NCBI GenBank assembly: GCA_025738555.1
Contig: JAOVFP010000010.1
Location: 124,001 to 188,000, forward strand
Direction: 5' to 3'
DNA: 64,000 nucleotides
Source: Cyathus striatus
Lineage: Eukaryota; Basidiomycota; Agaricomycetes; Agaricales; Nidulariaceae
Both the position numbers and the translations under genes were made by a program. Positions 21,201 through 40,923 of the stretch are shown here, piece after piece. How positions within the stretch are numbered: the first letter of the stretch is position 1; every line of letters begins with the position of its first letter. Under the pieces are notes generated by a model, which saw only the letters and a program-made list of their open reading frames with translations, did no database searches and was not told where the DNA came from.

Positions 21201-21674
21201 TGTGCTCGAAAAAGCTAGTATGAGATGATAAGCAAAGTGTTTGGTACAATGTCCGAGTAAGGGATGCAATGGAGTTCAGTGGGGGAGGACATGTATGGTA
21301 TATATATATACCATTAACGATACTGGACATGCAGAAGCCTCATGTTCACGCCAAGGACCTGTCGTAAGCGTTCACAACCTTTCTAGGAAAGTCGGAAGTA
21401 TCCTGCTGTTTGCCTGCACTGCAAAATGCACATTTCATTACCGTTTTGGCATATCTCGTTGCATTCTGATTGCTATTACTACCTAGTATAGTAGTACCTA
21501 CCCAGCCAATAAGCTACATGATCTCGATATCAGTGTATTCCTGCGATATAACCGGACCTGAATGGATATTTTGGTACATACTGTGATCTTCATTGGGCTC
21601 ACGCATATCATGCGTGTATGTACCTGCTCGGTGATGTTGATTTTTGCCGGACATCCGCGGTGCCTAGTTTAATT

Positions 21675-22775
21675 GGGCCGTCAACTTTTCGAGTTACCGG
21701 TAACTCGAATGGAACTCGATCGGAACTCGACTAGAACTCGACTTCGGAACTCACCTGTAACTTGAAAAATGTAAAATGTATGGTATATGACAGACATTCC
21801 AACACTGCTATGGGTTGCTAGATTGGTGCTTGCTCACTATTGCGCCTCCGCACTCATTATTTCCCACGCCCCTGAATGTCGATCATTAACTTCATCTGTC
21901 CATCAAATTGATCAATGAGTGCCGCACGTTGTTTTCCGCGGCGCGTTTGATCGCGTTCATGTGCCTCGTCATCGTCATAAACAGTGAGCACCCATTATTT
22001 TCATTTCTGGTTGAGTTCTTGGGCGATTTCTCTCAATTTCTTTTGTGAATATGAATATATATTAAATGCTTTGACAGTACAGCTAAACTACCTATGAAAT
22101 AGTATGAAAAGCTGAAATTATTATTGTTCATGTAATATTTTCTATAAGCACAGTACATGATATTTATACAACTAAGATGTTATATTGCATACAAAATAAC
22201 TAACTCCATATTATACAAAAAAAATCATAGGAAAAATCGAAAAACTGAGAGAAGAATGCACAAAATATGTGCTCACTGTTGAGCACGATGATGGAAGAAG
22301 TGCGACGCGATCACCATCAATGCATCAGAAGCAAGTGGAATGATCGGGGATTTGATGGATGATGTGATGGCACTATTTTTACACATCCGCGGCGGCAGGG
22401 GTGGGTGTAGGAAACAACGAGGTAAGGGATCACGACAACAATGAGCACAATCATAAAGTATGGGTTTTTTGTTATGGAACTTGAGGAACTTAAGTTAGAC
22501 ACTCGACTGGAACTTAAGTGGAACTCGAATGGAACTCGACTCAAATTCGAGTGGAGTCGAGTGGCATTTTCCACTCGAAGGTAACTCGATGGTAACTTAC
22601 CTTCCACTCGAATTTAGTGTAAGCGAGGAACTTAACTCCACTCGACTGACACTCGAAAAAAATATAAGCGAGGAACTCGACTCCACTCGATGGAACTTAA
22701 CTTTCACTCGAAAAAATAAGCGAGGAACTTAACTCCACTCGAGGAACTTGAAGACACTCGACTTTTACTTATTTT
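21675..22775. repeat. left terminal array of the giant element
   Basis: TIR plus AACTCGA units at 21,675-21,770, then about 700 bp of spacer, then a dense AACTTAACTCCACTCGA-type array at 22,480-22,770. The spacer resembles 49,640-50,400 of the F-box-splitting element (shared ACTGTTGAGCAYGATGATG), so the two belong to one lineage. Confidence 0.75.
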
Positions 22776-23835
22776 GATTTTTACAAGTACGTAGTATACA
22801 GGTTACGTTGTTCAATGGTTCAGATACATTTTTCATTGTGGCCAGCAAGCGGCAAAGCGCACTACCCAGAATTCATTTAGATTTACCCTAACTCAAGCTC
22901 ATTTAGATACACGTTTGATGTATTTTGCGGAATTATAACTACTATTCTCAAATTTAATTTCTCCAATCACATGTGGAAGGGTGGAATGCGCTAGTGGGAA
23001 TGCGATAAAGAACGAAGGCCTGTCAAGCATAATAGGTGACGACGAGATTCATCAGCTCTCTGCTGCAGGTCCCCTTCCTGAATATACGACTTTGTCCTCT
23101 TCATCGTACAAGAAATAAGCAAGAAAGATTGGTCACTTGGCTTGCACTCGAAAGATATAAGCGAAGTAAATGGCTCAGTAATTCGGAATTCCAGGTCTCA
23201 GGAATAACTAAGGAGGTACCGTCCAAGTTAACTAATATTCCACTTCATTTTGAACGTTTCGAAATCCAAGCAACTCTTTATTATTTACAAGACCCTATAA
23301 ACCAATTCTATACGCTTGTCATTATGCTCTTCGTGATACCTCCTCTTTCTTGCTAGTCCTGACCTGGAACTGTCTTTCGTATCAGTAAGTTTAATCTATA
23401 TTTTTAATATGTTCTCTCATAACCTCTATATGTTGTTAGCTTGCAAAGAAAAACGGTTGGTATGGACAATAGTGCTGCATTACTTACTTTCTCTTGTTGT
23501 TAACAGATCTTCATAAGTTTGATTATCGTTTTGTTTCTGCACTTCTTTTTCTGCAATTATTCCACCCTACAGCATAACACTTCGCACTCATCCCTATCAA
23601 ATTTTTGTTTGTCTATTTTGTCTATCGTGATCTTACAGCATTCTTAGTATTGGTAAGTTTTGGCTTTTCATCACTATTTGTTATTCTCACAACAAACAGT
23701 TTGCACTCATCCCTATCCACTTCGCACTCTCGTCCTTCCTAACCTCATAACTTGTTTAGCACTGGTAAGTTTTATCTATTCGTCGCTATTTGCTGTTCTC
23801 ACAACTGTTTTCTTTTAGTCCCAACCAGCAACGTA

Positions 23836-24277
23836 ATGGCCGTATGTTTTTTCTCTTTTCCATTACGATCTCGTGTAATTAATGTGTGTAATAGCCCATT
23901 CTCGTCTACCGTCCAGTAGGCAATCATATGACCCGCCGCGAACGAATGGAAGCAGGGGCAGCTGCACGACACGCAGTGTATCGAAATATGTGGCGGGGGG
24001 GTCGACGAAATATACAACACTGGGTCCTGTTGTAAGTCTTTCGTTGCTCATTCGTGTTTGCTCTAAATCCTGGTGCTTCAGGGCACCATTCCACGTCAGT
24101 GATTCGGACATGCAGCAACACTTTATGCTCCGGGGATTCAGACACAATGGAAAAGCTATAGCGACGATGCATATTTATTCGCGTACCCGGGAGCGTTATT
24201 ACAAGAACGGTGGAGCGAAATGGGGCAGTTCAGGATACCGTCGAATGGACTTCAACAATGATTGTGATCGGCTTTGA
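23836..24277 (+). CDS. small basic protein, three exons, unknown function
   Basis: ATG GCC (23,836-23,841) is followed by a GTATGT donor. Exon 2 is 23,895-24,031 and exon 3 is 24,082-24,277, with donor GTAAGT and acceptor TTCAG. The joined frame is 112 codons without a stop. It starts MAPILVYRPVGNHMTRRERM, has an Arg/His-rich centre (RNMWRGGRRNIQHW), and ends MDFNNDCDRL. It is predicted basic and nuclear-like, with no membrane segment. It lies inside the giant element on the strand opposite the two large genes. I do not recognise a family. The two-residue first exon is a weak point; the start could instead be the in-frame Met in NHMTRRERM. Confidence 0.45.
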
Positions 24278-24594
24278 AGATAATCTGTAGTATAATATAG
24301 TTTGTAGACCATCGTTTAATGTACATATATCTTGTTGTATATCTTGGTAATACGGATAAGTGGGGAGTAGAGTTGTATACTATCTATTATTGTATAAGTA
24401 TCTTATTGTATAACTTGGTAATATGGATACGAAAGGGAATGGAATTGTATATTACTCAAGGCATTTTACTGTTGTGTTCACACTCAAGATATATATTGTA
24501 GTTAATTACATTATGAAAATATACTGACACAAAAGTGCGTCCCCTTCCTGAATCAAAACCTACTAGTCCTCTCTATCGACATCTAGCGCGATAT

Positions 24595-24870
24595 AGTTTT
24601 TTCAAATCCTAGTTTATCTATGAGAAGGGTGAGTAGTGTCTGCAAGGGTGAGGCGAGCGGCGTTATAAGTCTGGCAGTGGAGGAAGAAGTGATTAGTGGT
24701 CTCAGGGCCATGTTGGCAGAAGAGAGACATATCTTGCCCGTTGATTTGCATATGCGATGGTGGTGGGAGCCCAGGAGGTTGTAATTTGTGATGGGGTATA
24801 CGAGCACTGTAGAGAGCTTGCGGGGGAGCGTTGGTTTGTTTAGCGTATTTCTAATCATCTCTTCTCTTTC
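24595..24870 (-). pseudogene. LINE polyprotein C-terminal fragment
   Basis: Two overlapping minus-strand frames give a HHHRI block and, after a frame change, LFCQHGPETTNHFFLHCQ. This matches the Cys/His tail that follows RNase H in fungal LINE-type reverse transcriptases. It lies 3' of the Spt5-like gene and is clearly dead. It may derive from the same LINE family as the RNase H piece at 30,452. Confidence 0.5.
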
Positions 24871-25004
24871 TTCATGCGTGCTCGAATCCTAAGCAAACGA
24901 TTGCTGTTATATAGCACCAAGAAAGTTTTATAATGTAAGTAATACCCGATAGCTATGTACACGTCTAAAAATACTATATACAATATATGGTAAGCGAGCA
25001 AATA

Positions 25005-28000
25005 TCAGCGCCTTTTTGCAATAACAGCGAGATCCCCCATAGGAATGTTAATCCCCCTATCATGTCTTTTCTTTCCTTTGTGTGGATAGGCAAAGACAGC
25101 CTCTCCCTTGAGATCGACTACCTGGTATTCCCCCCTGTAGATTTGGTGGTTTAGGTGATTCATGGCCGTAACCAGTTGACCTCTCCTTTCCGGGGGAACC
25201 CTATGGACATATTTAGCGGGTACAGAAATTACAATATTACCAGTTAATTCCACTCAGATTGATTGATCTCTATTAACGACTTCGACACAAAAACCAGTGC
25301 AGTTTTCATACCTCCCATTTTCAAATCCGCAGCTAGCCATAGTCGGTTGGGAGCCCGAAATAATCACATCGAGATAATTTTTACTCAGAAACAAACTGTC
25401 GCCATCGACAAGCCGTTTGATCCAATGATCTGCAAAGTTGTAAATATATTAGGGAAATATTTACGAGGAATAACAATACACACCATTGAATTCATTTATG
25501 AGATTTGAATGTACTGAAGAGCCTTCACCTATAACAAAAGTTTGCATAGATGGTGGAAGAGGACCAGAGGGTTCCAAGTAGCCAGTTGATTCTTCGTTCT
25601 CTGGAACTATAATTACTGTTATCAGTATATGCCAATACTACGACTAAAACTGACTGACTGCGATGCGGATACGCGATAAATTCAGCAGCTGCGGCATTTG
25701 ATATCTAAGCAGTATTTAATTAAGCACATATATCACATTTAAATATAAATACTTACTTGCGGGGTCCTTGAGCTGGGATTCCAAGCAGGTGTATGGGACC
25801 CAGTCCCAAAATCATTTTCCCATTGAGGCGTAGGACATATATTCATTGACGATGATGAATCTCCAACTAAATTAAGACCCTTGAAAATTTCTGGGAACGT
25901 GTCGTAATGCCTACGATATATTATTAGTTTGCAGGAGCAGAAAGTCAAAATTTTATCTATAATTACCCAGGAATATATAAGTGTTTTATTGACACTTCAT
26001 CCTGACGGTTGGAGCTTATTAAGCGGGCCTGAACTTCAAGAATGGCTTTCCCATCCACATTCACACTCTTCAGTATACCCATATCCCCTTTACGAGGGCC
26101 AAATTTAACCACTGCGTATTGGCCATAAAGAAATTTATACGGATCTTCTCGCATGATCCTGGCCTCATATTCACGATCCGCCATACTCTCCTCCTTAAAG
26201 GTATGGCTTCTATGGACTTCGCTACAAAAATCCAAATCCGATGAGCGAACTGACTCATGATGCCCCTATTCAAACGGTTTGAGTAACGTGTCACTGCAAA
26301 AATGTTTATAACTACCTTTATTGGAAAGGTGACGATGGTAACTTTCTCCTCGCCAATTTGCCCATAAGGCTGTATATCGGATACCATCCCGACAATTCCC
26401 TTGAGATGTCCAGACTTCACCCTAATGCCATCACCAATTTTGAAGCATTTTTGGAGTTGAATAACCGGATATTCGAATAGTATTGTCGGGGATTCAAGGA
26501 GTCTCAGTGTCACGTTTCCTTCTGAGATGTCTTCTACGAAGGCGAGCAAAACCTTAGGCTGCTGTAGAACAACCTTCACTTGATCACCTATACGTATCGT
26601 TGCTGAAAGTACAGCTCGCCTTGTATCTTCCAAATTTTTTTTAGGAATTAGGCTACAGCTCTCGAATGACCGTAGCTCATCGATCGTAGGGGTTGCTTCA
26701 ACCTGATAATGGCATCCTGATTTGAGTTGCTCACGCAGTATGAACCCATCTTGTGTGTAGAAGGATTTCCTAAACTTATATCCTTTAATAATTCGATTAT
26801 TCTGATCTTCGAAAATAACTTCAAAGGTATTCGGGCTTATTTCTCGTGCTTTTTCAGGATTAAAGAGCTCGCAAGGTGGTTTCAGATTTGATGAACTAGA
26901 CGCATGCTTTCGTTTCGACGAGTTCCTATACGTTGTTCGAGGTATATGAACAACGTTGATCTCGAAAGTCTTCTTGCAGACATCTGTAATAAAACCTAGG
27001 TCGTATTGAAACCTTCCTCTGAGTCGGACCCATGTGTTCTTGGATGGAATATAGCATTCTCCAATTTTTGAAAAGGAGACATCCCAAGTGGTAGCTGGCG
27101 CCGCACGGATACTGTTTTGATATACATCCGCCAAAATTTTGGTGCTGGTTTTAACGTCATTGAGACATTTAGCCTCCACATAAACGTGACCAGGGATGAC
27201 CGATAACGAAAATGCACTGCGGATGTACTTCGGGCTGCCGTGTAAGCTGAGGGAAAATACCACATCTTCCTCAGATCCATCCTATAAAATGTAAATAAGA
27301 TCTCAGACATATCCGTATTGTACTGACTGACCTTAACCGCTAGATCCCAAAGGGGCCAGTCCCCAGAATTACGGCCGCATCGAGGGATACTATGCTTGCT
27401 GACTGCCGAAGAACTAGTTCCGCTCGCTTGCGAAACAGCACCTATGTATGAACTAGGACTTGAGTTAACATACATTGTAAAAATATCGTTGATAAGTTCG
27501 CGGTGATTATCAATGCGTTGTCCTGCTTGTAAACTCGCAAGAAGGTCCCCTCCACCTGAGCGTAAGCGATCCATAACTTGCTGTTTCTTGTCTTCATTTT
27601 GTAAGCGCGTGTAAAGTGAGCGCTGAAGTATCAGTCGTGCTATGGGGGTGTTGGGATCTTCCTCATCCTGATCCTCATCATTGATAAACCCTACAATAGT
27701 CAATTTCAGCCAGATAATTTGAATTCGGGTAATGAATTATACATACCGTCCATATCCTCACCGTCCTCTTCGTCCTCTGAGTCAGAAGCCACCTTCGCTT
27801 CGATATCTAAGAACATTTTCTGTACGAGATGAAAGACTTCAATAAAACATTCGTTACTCTCAGCATAATACATCACCTCTATTCTTGCTCTCTTGTTATT
27901 CTTCGGTAGAGGCATCTCGTCATCAGGGTCATAATGCCATTGAATTTCGCTGGCATCCTTCAATGTGCTGTCGTGATTCAAAGCACAATTATCTTCAGCC

Positions 28001-28107
28001 ATTATTATTTTTATTGCTACGGGTGGTGTTTTTATTGTATCGAAATGTGCCTTCGTTGTGGGTCCTAGGTCCTGGTGGTTTTTGTTGCTTTTACGGCGTA
28101 GCTTCAT
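25005..28107 (-). CDS. Spt5-like transcription elongation factor, transposon cargo
   Basis: The exons (28,107-27,747; 27,690-27,332; 27,281-26,316; 26,265-25,967; further exons to 25,005) join in frame with GT-AG introns of about 50 nt and no stop. Order: acidic N-terminus (DSEDEEDGEDMDG); NGN domain ending GHVYVEAKCLNDV; KOW-like segments RLRGRFQYDLGFITDV, RIGDQVKVV, IRVKSGHLKGIVGMVSDI and YAVVKFGPRKGDMGILKSV; a TPAW/SRTP stretch like the Spt5 C-terminal region; and a last basic domain (VPAKYVHRVPPERRGQ). Spt5 binds Spt4 and RNA polymerase II and sets elongation and pausing (family knowledge). This copy is shorter than host Spt5 and very divergent, so it is probably not the housekeeping gene. 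The start may instead be the MAEDN methionine at 28,012. The splice before VELTGN uses a weak donor. Confidence 0.8.
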
Positions 28108-28514
28108 TATGACTAGACGTTTTATCGTTCAGTGATATGTATCTACGTTTATCTATGTTATCTACTTATTTTATCTACTGTATCTAGTTTATCTACTGTA
28201 ATTAATGTTCGGATACTGCAATGGTGAAGGAACGGACAAAGAATCAACAGACGCCCACAACCGTTATATTGAAAATGGTTTATTTTAGGGCAGGCTCAAA
28301 TAATCACGTGATGTTCATGATTGTATCAAACTTACGGATAGCGTACCTACAGTATCTTATCTACTTTAACTAGTGTTCAGTTGTTACGATGGTGAAGGAA
28401 CGGAAATAATTGATAAAAAAAACCATAAACTAGTTGAATCTATATTGGCACCCATTAAACTTAATAATAAAATCGATCTAGAAAAATGTTACTGGAAAAC
28501 CTCGATATAATAAT

Positions 28515-28880
28515 GTACTTATTGGGATTCGAACTCAAAGCCATCCAAAGACTAGTACAAGCACTGTACCATTAGGCTAATTGAACTTAGAAATTACATG
28601 TAACTGCTCAGATAATATCACTACTATTCGTGGCGCAAACTTTTAAAAGACATTATAAAATATATGAACAGGTACTTACTGGAATTCGAACCCAAAGCCT
28701 TCTGTAATATATTACAACGTTGGTTTGCACTGTACCATTAGGCTAATTGACTTTAAGATCAGTCTGGAAAAAGAACTCAGAAGTTATTGACCTAGAAGTC
28801 CATTCGGGATTCGAACCCAAAGCCTTCCAAAGACTAGTACAACGTTTATTCGCACTGTACCATTAGGCTAATTGACCATG
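28515..28880 (-). repeat. three tandem tRNA-like sequences
   Basis: On the minus strand three units (about 28,808-28,880, 28,682-28,748 and 28,515-28,590) each carry TAGCCTAATGG, fitting a Pol III A box, and GTTCGAATYCC, fitting a B box. In the 28.8-kb unit the T arm pairs (TTGGG/CCCGA) and six of seven acceptor positions pair. The other two fold worse, and the anticodon arms differ by insertions. They are probably tRNA-derived repeats rather than working tRNAs. Flanks repeat too: CAACTGCTCAGATCATATCA at 28,893 has a close copy near 28,605. Confidence 0.5.
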
Positions 28881-29274
28881 TGAATTATACGCAACTGCTC
28901 AGATCATATCACTACTATTTATGCCGTGAACTTTTTTTAAAAAAACTAACCTTACAACTAGTTGAACTAAAAAGAACTATATGATACTCTTTGTTGTGTG
29001 AACTTTCAATGCTGAAACAATCTGGAAAAAAATTGAGATATATAATACTTTTCGTCGAGTGTACAACTACGGGGATCTATGCGTACTGAAGAATAATATT
29101 AAGGATCTCGTAGCATAAACTTTTTAAAAAAAACACTAGATGCAACATAAGTAAGTCGACTGCTCACGTTATATTACTACCACCTAATAAACTTAATAAC
29201 AAGAGCAATCTAGAACATCATACAGGAGCACTTCTAATCCATGAAGTCACATGGACTTTAAGTAATTTAATATT

Positions 29275-29660
29275 CACTTAACATACATTTGAAGGAACTT
29301 GAATTTTTGCTAGATGGAACTTAACTTTTCAATCGAAGGAACTTAACTGAACTTAACTACCACTCGACAGAACTTAACTTTTGACTCGAAGGAACTTAAC
29401 TTTCACTCGACGGAACTTAACTTTTTAATTGAAGGAACTTAACTGAACTTGACTACCACTCGACAGAACTTAACTTTTGACTCGAAGGAACTTAACTTTT
29501 GACTCGAAGGAACTTAACTTTCACTCGACGGAACTTAACTTTTTAATCGAAGGAACTTAACTGAACTTGACTATCACTCGACAGAACTTAACTTTTGACT
29601 CAAGGAACTTAACTGGATTTTACTATCACTCGACAGAACTTAACTTTTCACTCTGTATGT
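29275..29660. repeat. internal AACTTAACT/ACTCGA array of the giant element
   Basis: About 15 units of the type GGAACTTAACTTTTGACTCG occur in direct orientation. They resemble the terminal arrays but have no GGGC terminus beside them. The array lies between the Spt5-like gene and the transposase gene. Confidence 0.7.
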
Positions 29661-30451
29661 CGACCTTCATTTGATTAACTGAAAGGCCTCAACTCAATTG
29701 AGTCTTCATTAATTCAGAAAAAAAAAGATGTCTCAGCAGCATACATCACATGTTCAATATCCCATAGAATTCTCGTTGAGGTATATGGATAGTACTGTTG
29801 TATCACACTTATGTCCCTTTTCAGCACGTGTAGTTGGGTGTAATATCGGTGATGGGGTACCATATGTCGCGACATAGGGGTGTCTACTTGTACGTGTAAG
29901 TATAGAAATTGTATCGTAGAAGAGAAAATGTGTATGCATAGTCCATCGTCGTTATATACTGACACTCGGGATTTATAGACAAAATTGAATCAATAACGAA
30001 ATGATATATGAAAACATACGCTTGCTTAGGTATCTTCATAATTGTAATGCAGCTGAAATCATGATATCACCTCTAATATATTAATAAAAATATTCTCTAC
30101 TTTCTACATACAGAAAAGAATACTTATTGTAGGCCTGAATCCTACCGATACTGTACTCATATGTTGCGCTTCGATGTCGACGTTCATTCTTGTTACATAA
30201 ATAGCCTAAAATGACATAAACTTAAAATTAGCATACTGAAACAACCGAAAATCCTGAACAACATATTATCAATAAGAAAATAACACAGAAACAAGACGTA
30301 TGTATAATGTACTATAAGTTACCCTCAAAACTTCAACTGCAATGAGTGAACTGCGAAGCGCGGTGTGTGCGGCTCACGACGTGACGCGCGAAGGGTTTTT
30401 GTGCAGAAATCACGCCATATGTGACCATCTGTGTGATGAGGCTAGTGAGTC

Positions 30452-30740
30452 TTAATGGAGGAGTAGTGTCGACTTAGAGGAGATGTTGCGGGTGATCTGT
30501 GGGTGGCTGGGGGAGAATTTCCAGTGGTGGGAGGCGGCAGCTTTGAGTCGTTTCACATCATGATGAACTGCGCGCAAAGCAGACCTAGAGAATGGTAAGT
30601 TTTTGTGGAGGAGCTTCGGAGGCTCCTTCCGCGAGCTCGAGCTGTGGGTAATTGTGCGCTTAGCCTCCCTGTCCGCTGCATTGTTTCCGACGATGTCAAA
30701 GTGGCTAGGTACCCATCTGAGAGTGACCTGGATGTCCACA
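30452..30740 (-). pseudogene. LINE RNase H fragment
   Basis: The frame contains VTLRWVPSHFDIVGNNAADR, the C-terminal active-site region of LINE-encoded RNase H (WVPSH...G.N..AD..A). It then runs about 60 residues to a stop. No reverse transcriptase lies upstream, so this is a truncated copy nested in the giant element. Confidence 0.75.
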
Positions 30741-30896
30741 CCACCCCGTCTGGAGGACTTTCTATTGCTAATACTAATACTAATACTACTACTACTATTA
30801 CTTATACTGATGCTACTCTAATACGTTACTAGTGAGAACATGAGTGAATAGATGAAAGAATTGATGGTAACGGTCACAGTATTGACCGCTCCCATC

Positions 30897-30930
30897 ATAT
30901 TTAGGGCAGGCCAACCCTGCCCTAAATATG
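30897..30930. repeat. short perfect palindrome
   Basis: CATATTTAGGGCAGG and its complement face each other across a 4-base loop. A single arm (TTTTAGGGCAGGC) also occurs near 28,285. Confidence 0.5.
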
Positions 30931-31383
30931 ACCGAAACAACCAAACTTGGAGTCACATGATGTGGCTGCGCCATCACTTTCTTTCCACTACTACCACGTA
31001 CTCCCATAGTTAGATAGTAGCAGTAGTATCTCAAGTGTACCTAATAGTAGAAATAATAAAAATACATTATATTCTTCAACAAACGTTTGAATACCGATGG
31101 TAACTAGGAAAAGAAGATCGAATGCTCAACAGCGAGGGCCGATTTACATGAGAAAGGGATGGAGAAAAACATAGTATTCCCCTCAGTACTGTGAACAGAA
31201 TTAGGTACGGCTGTCTACGCATTGGAGATGTAACTAATGTTCTTTATATATTATCAGAACCAACCGTTTACTGTTACAGCTCAGCCGCGAGCACCGATTT
31301 ACATGAAGAAGGGAGGGATAATGGCATTCGGTACAGTACGGCTATCTACGTATTCATCTGAACAAACCGTTTACTGATACTAG

Positions 31384-34300
31384 CTATTCTTCTTTATAGT
31401 TAGGACCAACCTATTCGACGACATAATTAATACGACAGTCCAGGATGAGCATACATAAGCGTACCTCCAGATCCTCTTGAACATCTTCAAATTTTGATTC
31501 TCGCCAGTAAGCAGGGACTTCATCATAGGGAAACCATTCATTCTGGAGAGGACCAACATCGAATCCCCAAATTCCACTTCCAGCACGGTCTGCTTCAATC
31601 GAACTTTTGAACAGTCTCTGTTCAAACATTGTCACGCACTCGCGATCCACATCTATAGAAGGCATCATCCTTTCCTCCACCTGGTATATCCATGTGGCTT
31701 CGACAGGCTTCTTTCCGGTTTCAAGCCTATCCTTGTAGACCAACATGATGTATAATGTCACCGCGTGCGCAAATGATACAGTAAGCATCCACTTTGATGG
31801 ATGACTCTTCGAAGGCTTTTTCTTGTCTGATGATGCCGAAGCAATATTAATGGAGAACCAATGCACGATTTCAGCTCGTTGCTGAGCCATCAGGTTTCCA
31901 TAATGGTCGACTGTCCCTCGAATATAACTTAGGCTTCGCTCCTTGGGGTATTTCTCCATTCTGCGAACATAATGAAGTACTGGTACGTTCTTATATTTTC
32001 GGAGATCGATTTTGTAGATGTCGATATGGAGTAGCTCATCCAGTATAGTGACGTGAGGACCAAGGATTCTGTCCATTTCTTTTGTTACCGGAGTCTCTAT
32101 GAAGTTCTCGATTATGTCTTCCTCGGAAGGAGTATTAATCGCCAGCTTCCAATGACCAAGCTGATATGTTCGTTAGCTATTATGTTAATACTATAAAAAT
32201 ATGATCACCTGTATCGCTCGCCGGCTTTGGATATCTGTCCACAGCTCATCAACAATTTCGCTTTCCCTAACTCCATTATAGATATGAAATTCTCCTTGAT
32301 TGCTCTCAGGGATACTACAGTCCCTCCAAAGCTTTACGTCCCATTGTGTCTCATCTCCTAGCTCGACCTTCCTAAGAATCCTTCCTGGGTACCAATACGA
32401 ACCGACTAGGATTAAAGCGCCTCTCCCTGCTCTAGTTGACGAAAATGGTTAGTAGTTATCTCTTATGTGGCTAGGAAGAACTAACAGTAAGCGATCTTTT
32501 TGCTTTCTTAGTAGCCACCTTGGCGGAAGTTTTGGCCTGAAAGGCGGAAATATAAGAAACTTTGCTATAAAGTGAGTAAAAGGTTGCTTACGGTTTATAA
32601 GACACTCCCTTTGAGCAGTAGTCACAGAAGAAATCTGTTTCTTCTGGCAGCCAAGATCCTCGTCCACCTCGTTGGCAAGCCAAGTGCATCCAATCTTTGC
32701 ACCCATAGCATTGAATAGCTCCTGGTGCCTCCGCGTCGAGTTCTGGGCCGTTTCCAGCTACACCACATCGACAATTGAAAGGTGAGTCGCTTTCGACAGA
32801 GTCGTCATCTTCCTCAGCTTGTAGTTGCGAAGAACGCTTCTCTTCCGGATGCTGAGTTGACGATTCCTCTGGCGGAATGGAAGGTTTGTCGCTCTCATCA
32901 TCTGTAATGGGGATAACTTGATGGTGCAGAGGTGACGATTCTTCTGGTGGCATTGTGGGCAGTTCGGGAATAACTCTAGTATATTCCCGAGTATACACTT
33001 GCTTCTTCTTCGCAAACCATGGACAATTGACCTCTGGAGAAAGATCGGCTCCACGGTACTTTAATACCGGAGGTTTCTGTAGCCCCTCCGTATCCACACT
33101 AATCTGATGTAACTTAAGAACCTTTGCGACCTGTCACTCTAAGAATGATTCTTGTGAACTTATTCCACCTTGCAATTTATAAACGACCGTGGTTGTGGAG
33201 AAGCCGGGTGGAGGATTTATGTGCTGTCCATACAGAGCAGTCTTAGCTGTCACATCAGTGAGCTCCGTTGCGATACCATTGTCCATCCCATCATAGTCAT
33301 AAATTGCATTGTTGTACATGTACCGAGTTCTAAAGTGGTTAGCACCATAGAAAGCACGCCTGACCATTTCGTAAGTAACGGACCCCCATCAGGTTGAATT
33401 TCCCCCAGAAAATTCCAAACTAAAGGTAAGTTGTCCTTGCCTTGAGGCATAAAACAACCCTCATCCACATTGATGATTAGTACGACTGGGATAGATAACC
33501 ATTTCGTAATATTGAAGTTAACCCCAGTGCACTTGGGCTTGCCATCAATGGTTCTGTAACAGGGAAGTACATCGTGGATGTCGTATTTAAAGCAGGTTTG
33601 ATGTCGAAGCCAGGTATTTGCATTTTCTTTGAATGTGTTAAAGTCGTTAATGTTCAGATGAACGGCCCTTTTCCGTTTCGGCGTTTTTTCCATGTACAAG
33701 TGTGTAATCTCGTTTGCGTCGAGAGCTTTACAACATACGCGTATGGCCACCTCGAGTTGTTCAAAGTACAGGTGGCCGTTATACTTACTTTCTGTGCTCG
33801 CCTCGTTCACAACGTCATAAAACCATTCCTAACCATGAAGCCAATAAGAAAGTATACGTGATAGATCGTATCAACTCACCCAGAGATTGTTAAATTCGCC
33901 CTTTTTAACACTTCCTATCCTATTATTTGCGAGATAGGCTAAAAACGTATTCCGTTCCTCTGACAGCTTCTTTACAGAGGATTGGCTAAAGACTTCGGCT
34001 TGATAGCCCGTGTATTTATTAAATAATGTTTCGACTACCTTCAGATGGCAATTTGGTGGCACAGTCCTCACCACAGTTGCGAAGTCGCGGGGGCGACGAT
34101 ACAAAGCCTGAAATAACAGCTGTAAAGAGGAATCCAACCAGCACGAATTATCCTCCCATGAGAAGGAAGCAAAAAGACTGGGCTCGCGCCCTCCATTAGA
34201 GATACTGGAGCTATAATCTTCATATGTTTTCTTCTTTTGAGGCTTCGTAATGCCTTCAGGTAGTATCTCGCGCTGAGTTTTCTTCTTTTGAGGCTTCGTA

Positions 34301-37300
34301 ATACCTTTAGGTCCTTGTCGAGTCTTCCGTTGTGTTGTAACTTTGTTTGTGGTATTTTTTGGGGCTCTATCCGCTGCTTTTGTTGCTTGAAGGAGCTTAA
34401 CCTTCTCTTCGTTCTTAGCAGCTTCATTTAGACCCACTCGGGTATCTAGATATTTTTTTGTTTTGTGATCGTAAGGACGACCATCGTTCACGATCTTCTC
34501 TGTTCTTTTCTTCTTCGGTTTATTCTCAACCAATGTTTTCTTTGGAGACTCCTCTTCAGGCGATTCGGTCGCTTTACTTTCCTTCCGTGTTTCCTCATCT
34601 GTCAAGTCATTTATTGGCTTTTTTTCTGGATGGCGAGACTTTCGATCGTATGTCTGCCAGGGCGCAGCTTTTCCATAACGAATACGTGTGCCAGCTATGA
34701 AAATAAATATCAGTACCATCCCCAACTTAAGATAAGAGTTAAGACTTACTAATGACAGCATTGAATGTCGTTTCGTTCGCGTCTGCAAGCGCCTTCAATG
34801 ATTTAAGGCCTTCGTAAAAGTAGTGGTCTCGACCCTGGGACATATACATCTTGAAGTGCTGCGCTTCCTCAGCATTCGTCGTGGATGGTAGAGATGTCCA
34901 TTCAGTAACCCCCATCTTTCGTTTACACTGGAAAATCATCGATGCCATGTGGGGCCGTAAATACCAGGATAGCCACAGCTTCACCTCTGGGAAGGTTAGA
35001 AAAATCTTCTGAACAATCTTGTCAAATTCTTTCACTGGCACATCGAGAAGACGAAGCACGTTCATTTCGAATTTATAGTCGTTGGAATCGTCGTCGATTC
35101 CTTTCATATGCCCGATACGCCTCACGCTGCTTTTGAAATGCTGTTGGCAGCCTTTCAGAAGACCCTCAGCGGCAACCCTCAGTTCAATAAAATCTCGAGG
35201 ATCATTCATTTCAATGGCCATCTCAACAAATGCGTTGATATACCCATTTCACTGGGCCTCACTGAAATCAACAACCTAACAGATGATTAATGTGTATTAT
35301 CTATAGAGAGAGAGCATATAAAACACACACCCCAGAGAAGGCACGATCGGTAATCTGCACGTTGTTCTCTCTGTACAGAATGAAAATATTTCCGAATAAC
35401 ACCCGGAAATGAAGCTTGTAGTGTAGGCTCGTTCCGCCGTCGCTGTAGGTGAACAAGACCCGCATCCATGATGAAGTTTGCATGCAATAGAGTGTAGAAA
35501 TAATAACGAGAGAAGACCTGTCTTTCCACCAGCCATGCGCAGCATCTGAGATAACACCATTTAACCCAGAAGGATTAAAATCAGCTCTGACGAGTAAGGA
35601 AGCCATCCAAGTAGATTGGAAAGAGATAACTTTCTTGTCGATAAGATCCTCAGCGACAATAAATGTCGGATGTGCTTCAGAAAATGTTTTGTATGCTTCG
35701 AGATTGAACTCCAGCGTCATTGGGGGGCCCCCCAAAGACTCAATGATCTGTCTTCTTTCCACAGCGATTCTGTGGGTATTGTTATAGCAGGAGGAATAAT
35801 CGGTCGCTGGCACCCCAGGTATGCCCATTACATCTCGCGGTCCTGTCTTCAGCTCCGAAGCTTTAGCGTTTGGATATTTGATGACATCCTGCCTTAACTT
35901 GTCGCGCTGCACTGGTAAGGGACTAACTATGTCACCCGGTTTGCCGTGATGATGATAACCGTGCTGATGGAAATATATGCCCGTCTTATAAACATAAGTA
36001 ATGGCCTTTGCGTGGCATGTAATGTAGGTGATCGGGTTTCTACATTGCTTACACTTGCGCTCCTGTTGCCCAACTCGTTCCTGCACTGTGGCTCTGGCGC
36101 GAATAATAACTTTGCAATGGGGATTATCACAGGTAAAGACTCCTCGACAAGTTCTTTCACTTCTGTAGCCTCCTTTGTATTTTTTTGCGCTTCGGCTTCC
36201 ATTCTTTTTCACTCCCCAAGATGACTGATTCGCCCATTGGATCTTCATTCGTCCTGTATCAGCGTAATACCGCAGAGAGTATCTGTGATGCCACTCCCCA
36301 TCCGGAAAAGTGTTCCATGTATTAGGGTCTTCACCGGGCCAAAGTTCGACTGTTTTGGTGATATTTTTGAGCTCGTGTTCATTGATTCCTCCAAACTTGC
36401 GACCGCTCTTAGTGTTCAAGCCCTTCCCATTGTCTTCGTCGTCGTCGATCTCTCTATCACTGTCATTGCTGTCACTGCCAGTACTGTCACTACCATTATT
36501 GTCACTGTCATCGCTGTTGCTGTTGTCGTCTGTACAATGTGCAGTCCGGTGGTTAGTGTTATTCTTTGAAGCTTTAGCATTGACTTGTGTCTGCACATGG
36601 GTTGCAGTTGACCATATAGGTTCCATGGGCTCAGGAAGTAGTCCGGTTATGTCCCTTTCAACGGGCCTTGGAATATATCCACGGACATGTCCTAATGCAA
36701 AAGGATAGATAGTATCTAGCAAATAACGTCTTAGTATACATCAATAACTGACCTTCAGGTGTTACAAAGAGCGCAAATCCTTTCGGTATGCCTTGTTCCG
36801 CCCGTTCGTATACTTCGCCGATTATTTTATTCTTTTTATCGATATCGTCCTGTGTTTCATTTTTGTAGGTCTGTAAGCAGGCTATAACCACACCTGGTGG
36901 CGGGTGTTAGAAAAGGTAGAGGGCATATCATTATAGTGTAACGAACCAGCCGTATTGAGGAGATCCAGCATAGTTGTTTCCCTCCTACTCCCCTCTCCTT
37001 CAGTCTTCTCTTCGCCACTGGAAGCTTTCAGTTTCTTTGGAAGGGGAGATGTGGGATTCGAAATGGAACGTTTGCGTTTATGTCCGACAGCAAATAAACT
37101 TGCAATCGACTGCGCAAATTTGGTCTGCTATTGTGTAAGCAAGAAGTCATAGATGAATACTAATTACTAGTACATACAAATCCCATTTCTCGATTCCTGT
37201 TGAGCACTATCTATAACTTGCTGCAAGCTGGGATAAAAATGTTGTTGAGGTCCGAAGCAATGAATCTGTTTCAATAAAGTCCCCTTCTTCGATCCACAGA

Positions 37301-37352
37301 AAAAAAGTATTATCCCCATGTAACATGTACTTATCTGATGCGCCTCAGACAT
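31384..37352 (-). pseudogene. GCM-MULE transposase fused to C19-type peptidase, PHD and SH3-like regions
   Basis: Joined exons give, in order: an acidic linker; a GCM/WRKY-type zinc region (SLRYYADTGRMKIQWANQ, Cys pairs, HQHGYHHHGKP); a MULE DDE core with D in NGVISDAAHGWW, D in VVDFSEAQ and E in TTNAEEAQHF; a Lys-rich linker with repeated GITKPQKKKT; a C19-like Cys box (SWEDNSCWLDSSLQLL) and His box (GANHFRTRYMY); a C4HC3 PHD finger (CRCG...CYGC...H..C...CDYC); and an SH3/Tudor-like GSYWYPGRIL segment. It ends at TAG 31,384. Lesions: TGA at 35,249-35,251 just after VVDFSEAQ, TGA at 33,134-33,136, and a one-base loss in a G run (33,387-33,391). Possible extra 5' exons reach about 37,815 and include TGA at 37,693-37,695. 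Family knowledge: such proteins mobilise MULE-type elements. Confidence 0.85.
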
Positions 37353-37916
37353 ATCAATGACATTTTACTACTCGCTCCGGCCATCCGGTAGCAATGCGCA
37401 TAATCACATAGATGTTTATCAAGTTCAACTACTCTACTGGTACTATTGCCTGGAAATATCCTGGCTTGATGCCAAGAGACTCAGATATGTCAGCCAATGC
37501 AACACCTAGTTCTTCAGTTAAGGAATCAGTGGGAGATTATTCCATACTTCATCCTGTCTGTCATAACTCATTAAGAGACTTACGTGTTTCACATGCCTGT
37601 TGGAGTTGTTCACTACTGCGCTTGGAATCTTCGGCTGCTTGTTCAAGATGCGAAGGTTTGGGAGGCGCGTCGCGCTTGGCATCTAAGCGAGATCATGAGT
37701 GGCAAGTCTGGATATCAGGTACAGGATCGGCAGGGTTGATGTTGTCAACAGATAAGTCTACCACTGCAATCTTTTTCATATGTGTACAAGAATTAGAAAC
37801 AGTGAGTACTAATGATACAGCCAGGAATTTAACGAAACAGTACATGATCAAGATATAGTATAGGGCGTGGAAGAGATCGTCACGCGACAACATGTGTGAT
37901 TGATTTAAGACTATCT

Positions 37917-38225
37917 TAGTGTTAATATATTATTTAGAGACTTCTATCTATACCTGAGAACAAAAATGTACAATGAAAATGTGGAAAATAGAGGACAAAT
38001 CATAGACTACGGCGCCTCCAATGCTATGGCAACCGAACTACAGTACTATTATATGCCGCTCCGAATGGGAAATTAATCGCCGTACTGTAGTTCGGTTGCC
38101 ATAGGGAAGGGGGTGCCGTAGTCTACTATTTTTGCTCCATTTTCCGCATTTTCACTGTATGTTATTGTTCTAATGTATAACTACATGTCTCTACATGTTG
38201 TAATAACAATAAAATAGTGTTAAAT
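37917..38225. repeat. foldback (MITE-like) sequence with a related arm at 39,300-39,460
   Basis: The left and right halves are inverted copies: GACTACGGCGCC... faces ...GGTGCCGTAGTC, and GGCAACCGAACTACAGTAC faces its complement. The centre (CCGCTCCGAATGGGAAATTA) recurs inverted at about 39,425-39,450 with a similar outer arm. It is non-coding. Confidence 0.7.
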
Positions 38226-38433
38226 AGACCCAGAAGCTATGCTTTTTCACGAAATGCTTTGTTCAACAGTATTTCCCACGCTTACTTGAATGCCTTATGT
38301 CACTTCCATATCAATCGTTTCAGCCACCAAGCTTCAGGATCAAGTTCAACTATTTACAATACATTGAGTACTTGGTGTATTCCTCTCTCCATATTTTTTC
38401 TGCGTGCTCTTGTTCTCACGTGTAATAATGTAT

Positions 38434-38996
38434 AGGAACTAATTATTGTAACTATATATCCCGAAGTGAATTTGGAATAAGTATAAGTTTTAACTAAATT
38501 CCTATTGTTTCGTGGTGTTTAATAAATAGTTGAGATGTATTCGGTTGGAATAGACAGTATAGACATATACTGTCGCATAACAAGCCTATGTAATCAAATG
38601 CAAACGCATAATGTGTATGTTTTTCATCTTTTCTTCCATATGTAACATACATCAATGCTTTCACTCTCGTACCGGATAAACCCAATGTTCGCCCCTCTAA
38701 TACTTATAAAACCACTCCAGGTACTTAAATATGCATTTGTGAAGCAGAGTATACAGTACAAATTTTATTATACAGTTTTTCTCACCCTTTGCAGCAGGAA
38801 AAGGTGAGAAACATACACGTTACGCGTTCGCATTTGATTACATAGGCTCGTCATGCGACAGTATATGTCTATACCATCTGTTCCAACCTAATACATCTCA
38901 ACTATTTATTAAACACCACGAAACAATAGGAATTTAGTTAAACTTATACTTATTCCAAATTCACTTCGGGATATATAGTTACGATAATTAGTTCCC
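38434..38996. repeat. long inverted repeat, arms of about 195 bp
   Basis: Sequence 38,434-38,630 is nearly the exact reverse complement of 38,805-38,996 (for example GGAACTAATTATTGTAACTA faces TAGTTACGATAATTAGTTCC). A 175-bp spacer separates the arms. It lies upstream of the transposase gene inside the giant element. A transcript through it would form a long hairpin. Confidence 0.85.
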
Positions 38997-39469
38997 GCTT
39001 GCCCATCGCATACTTTGAGTAACACCTCGTTAAATACTCTTATGTGAAGCAAAGTATTCAATACCTTTTTAAGCATCTTTAATAAAATAACTTAGGGTAC
39101 CAGTGAACGCTAGCTTTAAATATGGGTTTCAAATTTCTAGACAAAATATGAACGAGTAGAGCTGAATAAATTTTTAAAGTGGACTGAAATGCGCTGTAGT
39201 AAAACTACTCTAAAGTACATCAACAAGGTGTGGGAAATGCATGGGAAATACCACTGATCGAAACATATGATGAAAAACACAACTTCTAGCCTAATCTTCG
39301 AACATATTATTGATATTAGAATGTTTAGAGACATTTAGTTATACATTAGAACAACAATATGCAGTGAAAATGCAGAAAATAGAAGAAACACCGTTGACTA
39401 CGGCAACTCTGTACTACGGCGATTAATTTCCCATTCGGAGCGGCATATTGGAGCGTCATATTGGAGCAT

Positions 39470-40492
39470 CATAGAGAATCTTATAAAATCAATACTCATG
39501 CCGTGAAAGTGAATTAAAGACCAATGCTACCAAGACGACAACATAATATTAGCAACTTCGTGAGGGTATGATAAGGAATATTTCCGATGCGTACAAGAAC
39601 TAAATACAGTACTAATGATACAGTCAAGAAGTGCCGAAAATGTATAATACAATAATAGTACATGCAACAAAAAGACGTATAGAGTCAAAAGAAAATGATT
39701 TCATGTCCTATAGGAAGTTGAGGACTGGAAGAATATAAAACAAAGATACTTACTACACTGGGTAACGAATATGATCCCAGCCAACTGAGCAATATGTATG
39801 CTTTCCAGTCTGGACGACAAACTCAAGGTACTGATAGGATTCGATGTGTAAGTATCGAGTACTAGTAATAGAAATGAATCACTTACTTTACATTTTTTCT
39901 TTTTATGTTCGATAATTTGGTCCACCGTTCCTGACCTCCATATTGGTCCAAGTCTACGACCTCTGTGGTATCTTTGATCGATTAGTATCATGACATGGTT
40001 TCCACACTACGTACACGTTAGCTTAAAAAAAGGAGCAAAATTAAATACCTACTTGGTAGGTTGCTAACTTTTCTTCATACTTGGGATGTTGAATAGGTGG
40101 GATCCTCTTGGGCATCTACAAGAATAGATTATATTAGTTAGCATATAACGAAGATGGCCAAATAAAAAATACTGTCGCCAATGGTAGAAATGGTGGCAGG
40201 GAAGTAAATGTTAAGAACTGGAGCGTACTTCGTGCACCGACATGATTTTGGCACCGACGAAGTTGTTTACCAACACATTTTATTCCAAACAAATGAATAA
40301 CGATAATAATTGGATAGAGCAGATTGACTACTCTACGGGATAGATAGTAGGGCGTTAAACGCCGTGGTAGGATGTGTGTAAGAAAAAATGGGCGTGGGGG
40401 CGGGATACCGCGATCAGCGGAGCGGGTGCGTGGGAATGATACGCAGTGGGTTATCTCTGATCTTGGCGGCGTTAAGCACATCGTCGGTATAG
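39470..40492. other. no recognisable gene
   Basis: AT-rich interior of the giant element, with short open frames only. I see no motif or splice structure. Confidence 0.5.
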
Positions 40493-40914
40493 GGGCTGTC
40501 AACTTTTCTAGTTACCGATAACTCAAATGGAACTTAAGAACTTAACTTGATCTGAGGGAACTCAACTTTCAGTCAAAAAAAAATAAGCGAGGAACTTAAG
40601 TTTACTCGAGGGAACTCGACTCTCACCAAAAAAAATAAAAGCAAGGAACTTAAGTCCACTCGAGGGAACTCGACTTTCACCAAAAAAAATAAATAGGGAA
40701 CTCGAGTCCACTCGAAATAAAGGAACTTAAGTCCACTCGAGGGAACTTGACTTTCACCAAAAAAAATAAATCGGGGAACTCGAGTCCACTCGAAATAAGA
40801 AAATGGCCACTTGAGGTAACTTAACTTTGACTCGAAAAAGTTAAGCGAGCTCAATAGTGGAACTCGACTATAACTTAAGTGAGACTCGACAAAAACTCGA
40901 AAAGTATGCAGCCC
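40493..40914. repeat. right terminal array of the giant element with its own left-type TIR
   Basis: It begins GGGCTGTCAACTTTTCTAGT, close to the 21,675 terminus, and ends in the true right TIR at 40,914. AACTTAAGTCCACTCGAGG units lie between. The 9-mer left of 40,493 (TCGGTATAG) does not match the right flank, so this block did not insert alone at its present place. Confidence 0.8.
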
Positions 40915-40923
40915 AGTTTAATT

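Follow-up and report, generated by a model that had tools for sequence, protein, structure and literature searches.

The locus described here raises the question whether a transposase gene and an Spt5-like gene lying close together belong to one mobile element and, if so, what such an element would gain from a transcription elongation factor. In the window, i.e. the whole analysed stretch of 64,000 nucleotides from Cyathus striatus, an element of 19,240 bp extends between two convergent termini at 21675 and 40914. The 9-mer AGTTTAATT is located directly outside both ends (left copy 21666..21674, right copy 40915..40923, both unstranded), the left terminus starting with GGGCCGTCAACTTTTCGAGTT (21675) and the right terminus finishing with AACTCGAAAAGTATGCAGCCC (40914); the duplication claimed in an earlier sequence-only reading of this DNA proved exact. 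The left terminus with the first subterminal repeats of ACTCGA-type units (21675..21760, plus strand) was delimited by repeat comparison of the window and by its matches in the genome, at least 40 of which reach 92% identity or more, and the right terminus (40884..40914, plus strand) by repeat comparison, genome matches and target-duplication pairing. Together both ends form an inverted repeat of 31 nt (77%, target included).

The 107-Mb genome contains at least seven full-length copies of 18.5–22.0 kb, the window copy among them. Since the same termini bound six other stretches of this size, the pairing of the termini in the window is not due to chance. The siblings carry their own duplicated targets, and the 9-bp duplication was exact in five of the seven full-length copies, or in 6/8 of the pairs tested when a short copy of 2,630 bp is included; for C8 it became exact once the right end was extended by one base, and C6 showed an 8/9 match after a one-base shift of the right border. 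For comparison, the left flank of one copy matched the right flank of another at 5/9 positions at most (56 comparisons) and shifted positions gave at most 7/9 (392 comparisons), in line with the earlier view that a chance match of the 9-mers is unlikely. In the pairing, the 20,295-bp pair with exact duplication was kept for the left end of C2 and a 22,427-bp alternative lacking a shared 9-mer was dropped, while the right end L046, where no terminus was recognised, was left out. Inverted termini and a target duplication of fixed length, the hallmarks of a cut-and-paste DNA transposon, were found in independent copies. C3 and C11, which were read whole in the proposed check for other copies, carry their genes in the order seen in the window, bounded by the same termini, and the other four full-length copies carry the Spt5-like gene and a transposase exon at fitting places. 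The window unit is one member of a multi-copy family with many short derivatives and not a one-off capture, and that it is a transposon is virtually certain.

Empty sites with a single target copy, as expected for a DNA transposon, were obtained through copy C5, which sits in a repeat whose uninserted copies persist in the genome. Its joined flanks matched nine paralogous sites across the junction, and none of the five that were aligned carries an insert there. The search for an empty site proposed earlier was successful for this sibling only in such paralogous form; for the window copy neither the suggested pattern nor the joined flanks retrieved one from the genome, a genome search for C8 found none either, and for C3 it gave only a 69% match. 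The main earlier reading, a single large transposon that made a 9-bp duplication and contains transcription and chromatin genes, is supported by the copies and the sibling's empty sites.

The transposase gene (31411..37186, minus strand, 10 modelled exons, 5' end uncertain) was defined by a gene model, alignment with relatives, and profile and fold searches; in an intact sibling the protein comprises about 1,760 amino acids. It contains a DDE-like core (SDAAHG, VVDFSEA, TTNAEEA), a protease box (NSCWLDSS), a PHD finger and a tail that we took for SH3-like. The window copy is broken by an in-frame stop and a 1-bp frameshift, and dN/dS amounts to 0.37, a figure in which about the first 100 codons are out of frame (exon end 13 bases off). 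A homology search with the whole protein gave no match and a shorter query gave five, namely P0008 (Cytidiella melzeri), P0009 (Mycena pura), P0010 (Rhodocollybia butyracea), P0011 (Daedaleopsis nitida) and P0012 (Lentinula edodes), from species which we take to be all Agaricomycetes. These proteins, annotated as 'hypothetical protein' or uncharacterised, show 29–36% identity to the element over 63–96% of the query piece and, as far as their gene models extend over them, contain the three core blocks in partly altered form. Judged by this alignment, the transposase type is common to the element and other mushrooms.

GCM, C98-type protease and PHD matches were obtained in two of the five relatives each, all below the cut-offs (GCM: P0008 1.6e-4, 22 bits versus a cut-off of 25; P0009 0.0021), and Pfam yielded neither a GCM nor a protease match in the element's own protein, whose GCM-like finger is judged by alignment with the other mushrooms' relatives. 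To judge by the fold predicted for P0009, the protease appears to be of the USP type, since the 50 matches listed for that model were all USP-type (best E 4.6e-7), the model itself being of low confidence (mean pLDDT 47; TM-scores of 0.45 or less). The box NSCWLDSS was found in the element, P0009 and P0010; a solved-structure sequence search with the protease part gave no relevant match and an NCBIfam profile search no useful one. Of the MULE transposase fused to peptidase, PHD and SH3-like regions described in the sequence-only reading, the protease and PHD regions stand where they had been seen, but the gene is broken and no Pfam MULE match was obtained up to E 10 with HMMER filters that drop most weak matches, beside the conserved D/D/E-like blocks in the alignment with relatives. 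The MULE label is therefore not proven; it rests on the 9-bp duplication, which lies in the Mutator-like range of about 9–11 bp, on the GCM-like finger, which Pfam sees in relatives only, Mutator-like elements having fingers of WRKY/GCM1, FLYWCH or SWIM type, and on recognised motifs. According to the accessible part of the source, Rehavkus MULEs have a 9-bp target duplication, a PHD finger and, ahead of the 3' end, a minisatellite, and are recorded for arthropods and annelids (PMC6446971). The element resembles MULE/Rehavkus in the 9-bp duplication and, for Rehavkus, the PHD finger and the minisatellite, but differs in the lacking Pfam MULE match, the length of 18–22 kb, the apparently USP-type protease and the Spt5 cargo. 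Its 9 bp also depart from the 8-bp duplication given for Zisupton in the available text of PMC12730594 and thereby from the Kyakuja-Dileera-Zisupton group. For giant mushroom transposons whose transposase is of this GCM-DDE-USP-PHD type, no name was found in the literature consulted.

The Spt5-like gene (25005..28002, minus strand) consists of eight exons (28002-27747, 27690-27332, 27281-26316, 26265-25967, 25910-25757, 25704-25659, 25606-25484 and 25429-25005) and was identified by a gene model, a solved Spt5 chain and sub-cut-off Pfam matches. It had been called apparently intact; the window copy has an in-frame stop at codon 793 of 875, and the intact version is in sibling C3. The protein matches the solved Spt5 chain 8qsz_Y with E 5e-14 over 194–508, and Pfam places NGN (2.4e-4) and KOW5 (2.3e-5) 1.0 and 2.7 bits below their cut-offs, with acidic N and CTR matches likewise below the curated ones. 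NGN followed by KOW domains, as in Spt5, is flanked by an acidic N-terminus and remnant C-terminal repeats, about two motifs by eye compared with many in the host Spt5; the structure model is poor (mean pLDDT 35, 9-row alignment). The second gene of the element is a full Spt5 paralogue. It shares the domain plan and one intron position with canonical fungal Spt5 but differs in a shortened NGN loop, few C-terminal repeats and its own N-terminal signature, and 80 of 307 aligned core residues are identical to this genome's own Spt5. The common intron lies at VK|xG in phase 0 (VN|VG in the C22 paralogue). Because it was kept at the place and phase of the host Spt5, we infer that the captured material was DNA with an Spt5 paralogue that had not gone through an mRNA stage; a processed, mRNA-derived capture was rejected on account of the introns. 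The closest known Spt5-like sequences are in Cyathus; in a 5-residue-word search in which the 7,990 candidates sharing most words were scored, no Spt5-like homologue was found outside Cyathus, and none in the species of the five transposase relatives.

The Spt5-like gene belongs to the standard content of the element, being present in all seven full-length copies and in 12 of 13 sampled copies, a sample drawn from 23 near-complete DDE-exon matches. It is intact in C3 and damaged in the other six full-length copies, window included. Five of the seven show no exon indels; in C5 exon 3 is short by 2 bases, and C8 has an insertion in exon 3, its first exons lying outside the stretch examined. Only C18 has a transposase-type exon nearby without the Spt5-like gene, so the gene is dispensable for some copies; C18 may move with help from others. 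The dN/dS values are 0.39, 0.43 and 0.47 over 872–874 codons and, versus the C14 subfamily, 0.28–0.37 (exon 3), 0.20 (exon 4) and 0.40 (last exon), all blurred by CpG decay, which adds nonsynonymous change in dead copies. At the silent sites of exon 3 the two subfamilies differ by about 20%, and exon 4 shows two nonsynonymous and no synonymous differences between window and C3. Changes of C>T and G>A in CG context account for 57/71 deviations from the majority in C11, 60/76 in C2 and 91/129 in C6, compared with only 8/28 in C3 and 15/25 in the window. The values of 0.28–0.47 (whole gene and largest exon) indicate that the gene evolves under purifying selection. From its regular presence, Spt5 plan and apparent purifying selection it follows that the copies that moved probably carried a working Spt5-like gene, and we regard it as highly probable that Spt5 is a selected gene of the element.

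An Spt5 copy kept working by selection suggests that the element governs its own transcription. The insertion in the window belongs to a family of large cut-and-paste DNA transposons, and in the proposed mechanism the Spt5-like protein would serve the element. Most likely it would associate with RNA polymerase II, together with the host Spt4, and help transcription through the element's own long, CpG-decaying, probably methylated genes; alternatively, it would compete with silencing that depends on host Spt5. An additional effect on chromatin may come from the protease and PHD parts of the transposase. As a whole explanation, an element family with a selected Spt5 paralogue acting for the element is favoured with moderate confidence. 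The pro-transcription or anti-silencing role as such is put forward tentatively, and it is possible, hardly more, that the paralogue replaces or outcompetes host Spt5 on the polymerase such that 18–22 kb of methylated, intron-rich DNA are expressed despite host silencing.

By analogy with a reversed plant SPT5L/KTF1, the protein could instead be a decoy that blocks host co-transcriptional silencing by competing with host Spt5 rather than aiding elongation. The short C-terminal repeat region and the CG-context decay, which fits methylation, agree with this, as does an Spt5 relative acting in plant RNA-directed DNA methylation according to the parts available of PMC3111484 and PMC10229537; we nevertheless consider the decoy rather unlikely. 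Quite unlikely is a mere passenger, a gene picked up a single time beside the transposase and replicated with it while contributing nothing to the element, even though acquisition of host gene fragments is a noted trait of MULEs (accessible part of PMC6446971), C18 does without the gene and the gene is broken in six of the seven full-length copies. A passenger would drift, whereas this gene is complete, spliced, nearly always present and held at low dN/dS across two subfamilies. Spt5 rides on the polymerase, and together with the PHD finger and SH3-like region of the transposase this could point to a protein that, tethered to the elongating polymerase, guides the transposase to transcribed or permissive chromatin. 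Such steering appears very unlikely, as C5 sits inside a repeat and two relatives keep the PHD finger with no Spt5-like homologue found in their species.

If a selected Spt5 paralogue does act for the element, this would be a eukaryotic DNA transposon encoding its own general transcription elongation factor, and with a complete, selected paralogue the list of presumed anti-silencing genes of transposons would come to include core elongation machinery of RNA polymerase II. One could then test whether a mobile element can tune elongation for its own benefit, and a natural, highly diverged Spt5 is provided for structure-function work. The element also documents a group of giant mushroom transposons. 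Fungal DNA transposons with a TET/JBP dioxygenase (Kyakuja, Dileera, Zisupton, Plavaka and others) are described in the accessible text of Kojima 2025 (PMC12730594), in whose main text Spt5, Mutator, PHD and Cyathus are absent. They, too, acquired an additional gene with a presumed anti-silencing role, in their case TET/JBP instead of Spt5. Another parallel is offered by Arabidopsis VANDAL elements, whose VANC is, to our knowledge, not an Spt5 homologue. VANDALs are DNA transposons with an extra gene, VANC, directed against their own silencing, as far as the available parts of PMC10398659 and PMC5735166 go. No transposon-borne Spt5 was found named in the accessible literature.

Apart from the two large genes, which contain all ORFs of at least 150 amino acids, the small spliced gene seen earlier was recovered at its position (23928..24277, plus strand; exons 23928-24031 and 24082-24277). 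Its 99 codons and an identical 50-bp intron are kept in window, C3 and C11, with dN/dS of about 0.5 for window-C3 and C3-C11 and about 1 for window-C11. Rfam and tRNA scans of the window gave no matches. Repeat comparison revealed a left subterminal block (22485..22761, plus strand) with units in common with the right end, an array of tandem subterminal-type units inside the element, separating the two large genes (29266..29653, plus strand), and right subterminal tandem repeats of 54- and 77-bp units (40538..40798, plus strand); six repeat pairs (I1-I6) form a nested, foldback-like block of inverted repeats (37903..39448, unstranded). A second, internal left terminus in direct orientation (40493..40534, plus strand, 90%) lies 422 bp from the right end in all three copies read whole. 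The right end alone could thus be a short element and the 9-mers could bound two different neighbours, which is extremely improbable, since TCGGTATAG, and not the target sequence, precedes the internal terminus in the window, all three copies share the composite right end at the border, each with its own exact outer duplication, and these duplications together with the C5 empty sites led us to reject an accidental pairing. The right part of the element resembles the product of an old fusion that is mobilised in one piece today.

The element family is a multi-copy DNA transposon of 18-22 kb that carries a selected Spt5 paralogue. At the 19,240-bp window copy, the 9-bp target duplication AGTTTAATT was found at 21666-21674 and 40915-40923, immediately outside both termini, as the sequence-only reading had proposed. 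In the genome searched (107,453,461 bases, 24 contigs), where the window corresponds to C10:124001-188000, the left terminus occurred at at least 40 places with at least 92% identity (40 of 165 initial candidates scored), and the right terminus gave at least 47 matches (40 of 141 candidates scored). Pairing of 30 left and 20 right ends on the same strand yielded seven full-length copies of 18,491-22,007 bp, named by contig as C10 (the window copy), C11, C3, C5, C2, C8 and C6, together with a short copy of 2,630 bp. For six of these eight pairs the 9 bp outside both ends matched exactly; the duplication of C8 became exact once its right end was extended by one base, and that of C6 reached 8/9 after a one-base shift. 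Control flanks taken from different copies agreed at 5 of 9 positions at most (56 comparisons), and shifted positions at 7 of 9 at most (392 comparisons). As a side observation, in 10 of the 19 right ends with a recognised terminus about 20 bp were tandemly duplicated relative to the window copy.

The short empty-site pattern suggested from the sequence alone had no match anywhere in the genome. In addition, the joined flanks of four copies (window, C3, C8 and C5) were run against the genome. Those of the window, C3 and C8 copies returned only themselves, except for one 69% match for C3. The joined C5 flanks matched nine other places across the junction; identity was 90-92% for seven of them and 83% for the remaining two. 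In the five of these paralogous sites that were aligned, the junction was free of any insert and the target, partly mutated, occurred once per site. Consequently, the C5 sibling represents a unit of 19,469 bp that has inserted into repetitive sequence.

Three copies (window, C3 and C11) were read whole. The window copy is 94-98% identical to the other two across the Spt5-like region and the transposase, and the three are distinguished by nested insertions. All three contain a second left terminus in direct orientation, 422-457 bp inside the right end, as if the right end had been supplied by an old short element. Compared with C3 and C11, the window has a shorter stretch preceding this internal terminus, and its junction coincides with a brief GGGGC common to the copies; the additional sequence in C3 and C11 reads by eye like a piece of a Copia polyprotein. 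Separately, the Spt5-carrying element on C14, which belongs to a second subfamily, was seen to harbor a nested 1,725-bp short relative with the exact target duplication GAATTACAC.

The Spt5-like gene lies on the minus strand (28002-25005) in a model of eight exons and encodes 875 residues in C3. The best solved-structure chain for the protein was 8qsz_Y (residues 194-508, 5e-14), recorded as 'Transcription elongation factor spt5' and presumably from S. pombe; a second, weak stretch of 11.9 bits covers the KOW/C-terminal-repeat region. In Pfam, the domains NGN (2.4e-4) and KOW5 (2.3e-5) were matched, as were the acidic N-terminal region of Spt5 (0.025) and its C-terminal repeats (0.053), each below the curated cut-off. 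In a search that scored the 7,990 candidates with the most words in common, all seven Spt5-like relatives were from Cyathus striatus. With the transposase relatives described below, this led us to regard the host as an agaricomycete near Cyathus. Two Spt5-like proteins of C. striatus, P0005 and P0006, are annotated with an N-terminal WD40 fusion, which may be genuine or may reflect faulty gene models.

The gene had been described as apparently intact in the window, which does not hold: the window copy has one in-frame stop, and it is the C3 copy that is free of stops. C11 carries two stops, C2 and C6 six each, and C5 four followed by a 2-base deletion, and in C8 exon 3 contains an insertion (the first exons fall outside the stretch examined). 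When 1,001 bp of the DDE exon were searched against the genome, 25 matches were obtained, 23 of which cover at least 999 bases at 89-100% identity. Six further loci have a left end that lies 12-21 kb from a DDE-exon match in fitting orientation, and these were checked over 3.5-3.6 kb at the expected gene position or, for C14, over a stretch of that locus. The gene was present at C14, C4, C1 and two places on C2 (1.51 Mb and 1.09 Mb), in some cases partial within the stretch. It was absent from C18:165701-169300, where element sequence from both its sides is found and a transposase-type exon lies nearby. Thus, 12 of the 13 copies examined, which were selected for a left end at fitting distance from among the 23 near-complete DDE-exon matches, contain the Spt5-like gene.

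Over 872-874 codons, dN/dS of the Spt5-like gene was 0.39 for window-C3, 0.43 for window-C11 and 0.47 for C3-C11. Against the C14 subfamily, values of 0.28-0.37 (exon 3, dS 0.19-0.22), 0.20 (exon 4) and 0.40 (last exon) were obtained; in exon 4, window and C3 differ by two nonsynonymous and no synonymous changes. Among deviations from the majority in the gene region, C>T and G>A changes in CG context accounted for 57/71 in C11, 60/76 in C2, 91/129 in C6, 35/62 in C5, 18/23 in C8, 15/25 in the window and 8/28 in C3, a context that would fit decay following CG methylation.

With respect to origin, two genes outside the element were compared. The gene on C20 was taken as the host's own Spt5: its match to the NGN family of Spt5 has an E-value of 2e-18, and its C-terminal repeat region is long. 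A stand-alone divergent paralogue lies on C22 (C22:1288992-1291677), with open exons throughout the part read. Over the core it shows 44% identity to the element protein, and it shares the N-terminal signature CALNxxGTLKDA of that protein. Core identities were 80/307 (host-element), 81/307 (host-C22) and 143/319 (element-C22), and the three genes share, by eye, an intron of identical position and phase where the first NGN strand ends (VK|PG, VK|DG, VN|VG). Together these identities and the common intron place the element gene in a divergent Spt5 branch, probably captured with introns. The 21 kb read at the C22 locus showed no match to the transposase, element DNA or terminus pattern, and its neighbours look by eye like ordinary host genes. 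The C22 gene could be either the source of the element gene or a settled descendant of it.

The transposase gene of C3 is stop-free for 1,764 codons (10-exon model, 5' end uncertain), and that of the window is broken twice, by an in-frame stop directly following VVDFSEAQ and by a frameshift of 1 bp at about 33388. Between these two copies dN/dS was 0.37, with about the first 100 codons out of frame owing to an exon end placed 13 bases off. The DDE-containing piece retrieved five relatives (P0008-P0012; 29-36% identity, E 1e-48 to 1e-95) from five other mushroom genera, all of which we take to be Agaricomycetes. The SDAAHG, VVDFSEA and TTNAEEA blocks are recognizable in the alignment, although the relatives depart from them in places or have gaps there. 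A cysteine box, NSCWLDSS, is common to the element, P0009 (Mycena pura) and P0010 (Rhodocollybia butyracea). Of the MULE transposase with PHD region proposed earlier, the PHD finger was recovered as a weak Pfam match (E 0.01 in the C3 protein, 6.5e-4 on a single window ORF) beside one weaker, probably chance match. MULE profiles gave no match to the excised DDE region up to E 10, in a search whose HMMER filters drop most weak matches. MULE-like is used here as a provisional superfamily label. Among the relatives, GCM (best 1.6e-4), PHD and, weakly, the C98 SUMO/ubiquitin protease family appeared in two each, all below curated cut-offs. The predicted P0009 structure (mean pLDDT 47) matched USP7, USP1, USP18 and USPL1 with a best E of 4.6e-7 and TM-scores of at most 0.45.

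The MULE group Rehavkus is described as having a 9-bp duplication, a PHD finger and a minisatellite (PMC6446971), and TET/JBP cargo is reported for fungal DNA transposons (PMC12730594); the main text of the latter mentions neither Spt5 nor Mutator, PHD or Cyathus. The C. striatus genome was reported in PMC8480192, whose main text names neither Spt5 nor Mutator. By title and abstract opening, none of the open-licence PMC papers listed as matches concerned a transposon-borne Spt5. Most likely, the Spt5 paralogue would aid transcription of the element or its evasion of silencing.

The small spliced gene noticed earlier (23928-24277) was found with equal length in the window, C3 and C11, comprising 99 codons and one 50-bp intron; it matched no Pfam family at cut-off. 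Its dN/dS was about 0.5 for window-C3 and C3-C11 and about 1 for window-C11, which differ by only 14 changes. By eye, the C3 gene resembles that of the C14 subfamily more than the window gene (about 80% to the window, compared with 97-98% in the large genes), a possible sign of recombination between the subfamilies. Further along the window, a row of similar units at 28524-28935 resembles by eye reversed tRNA-derived (A/B box) sequence, and ARAGORN called no tRNA in these units. Nested long inverted repeats at 38435-38995 and 37903-39448 (145 nt at 92% and 56 nt at 98%) form foldback-like insertions within the element, and a piece of an NACHT/NPHP3-type P-loop gene lies just left of the element at 20473-21072.
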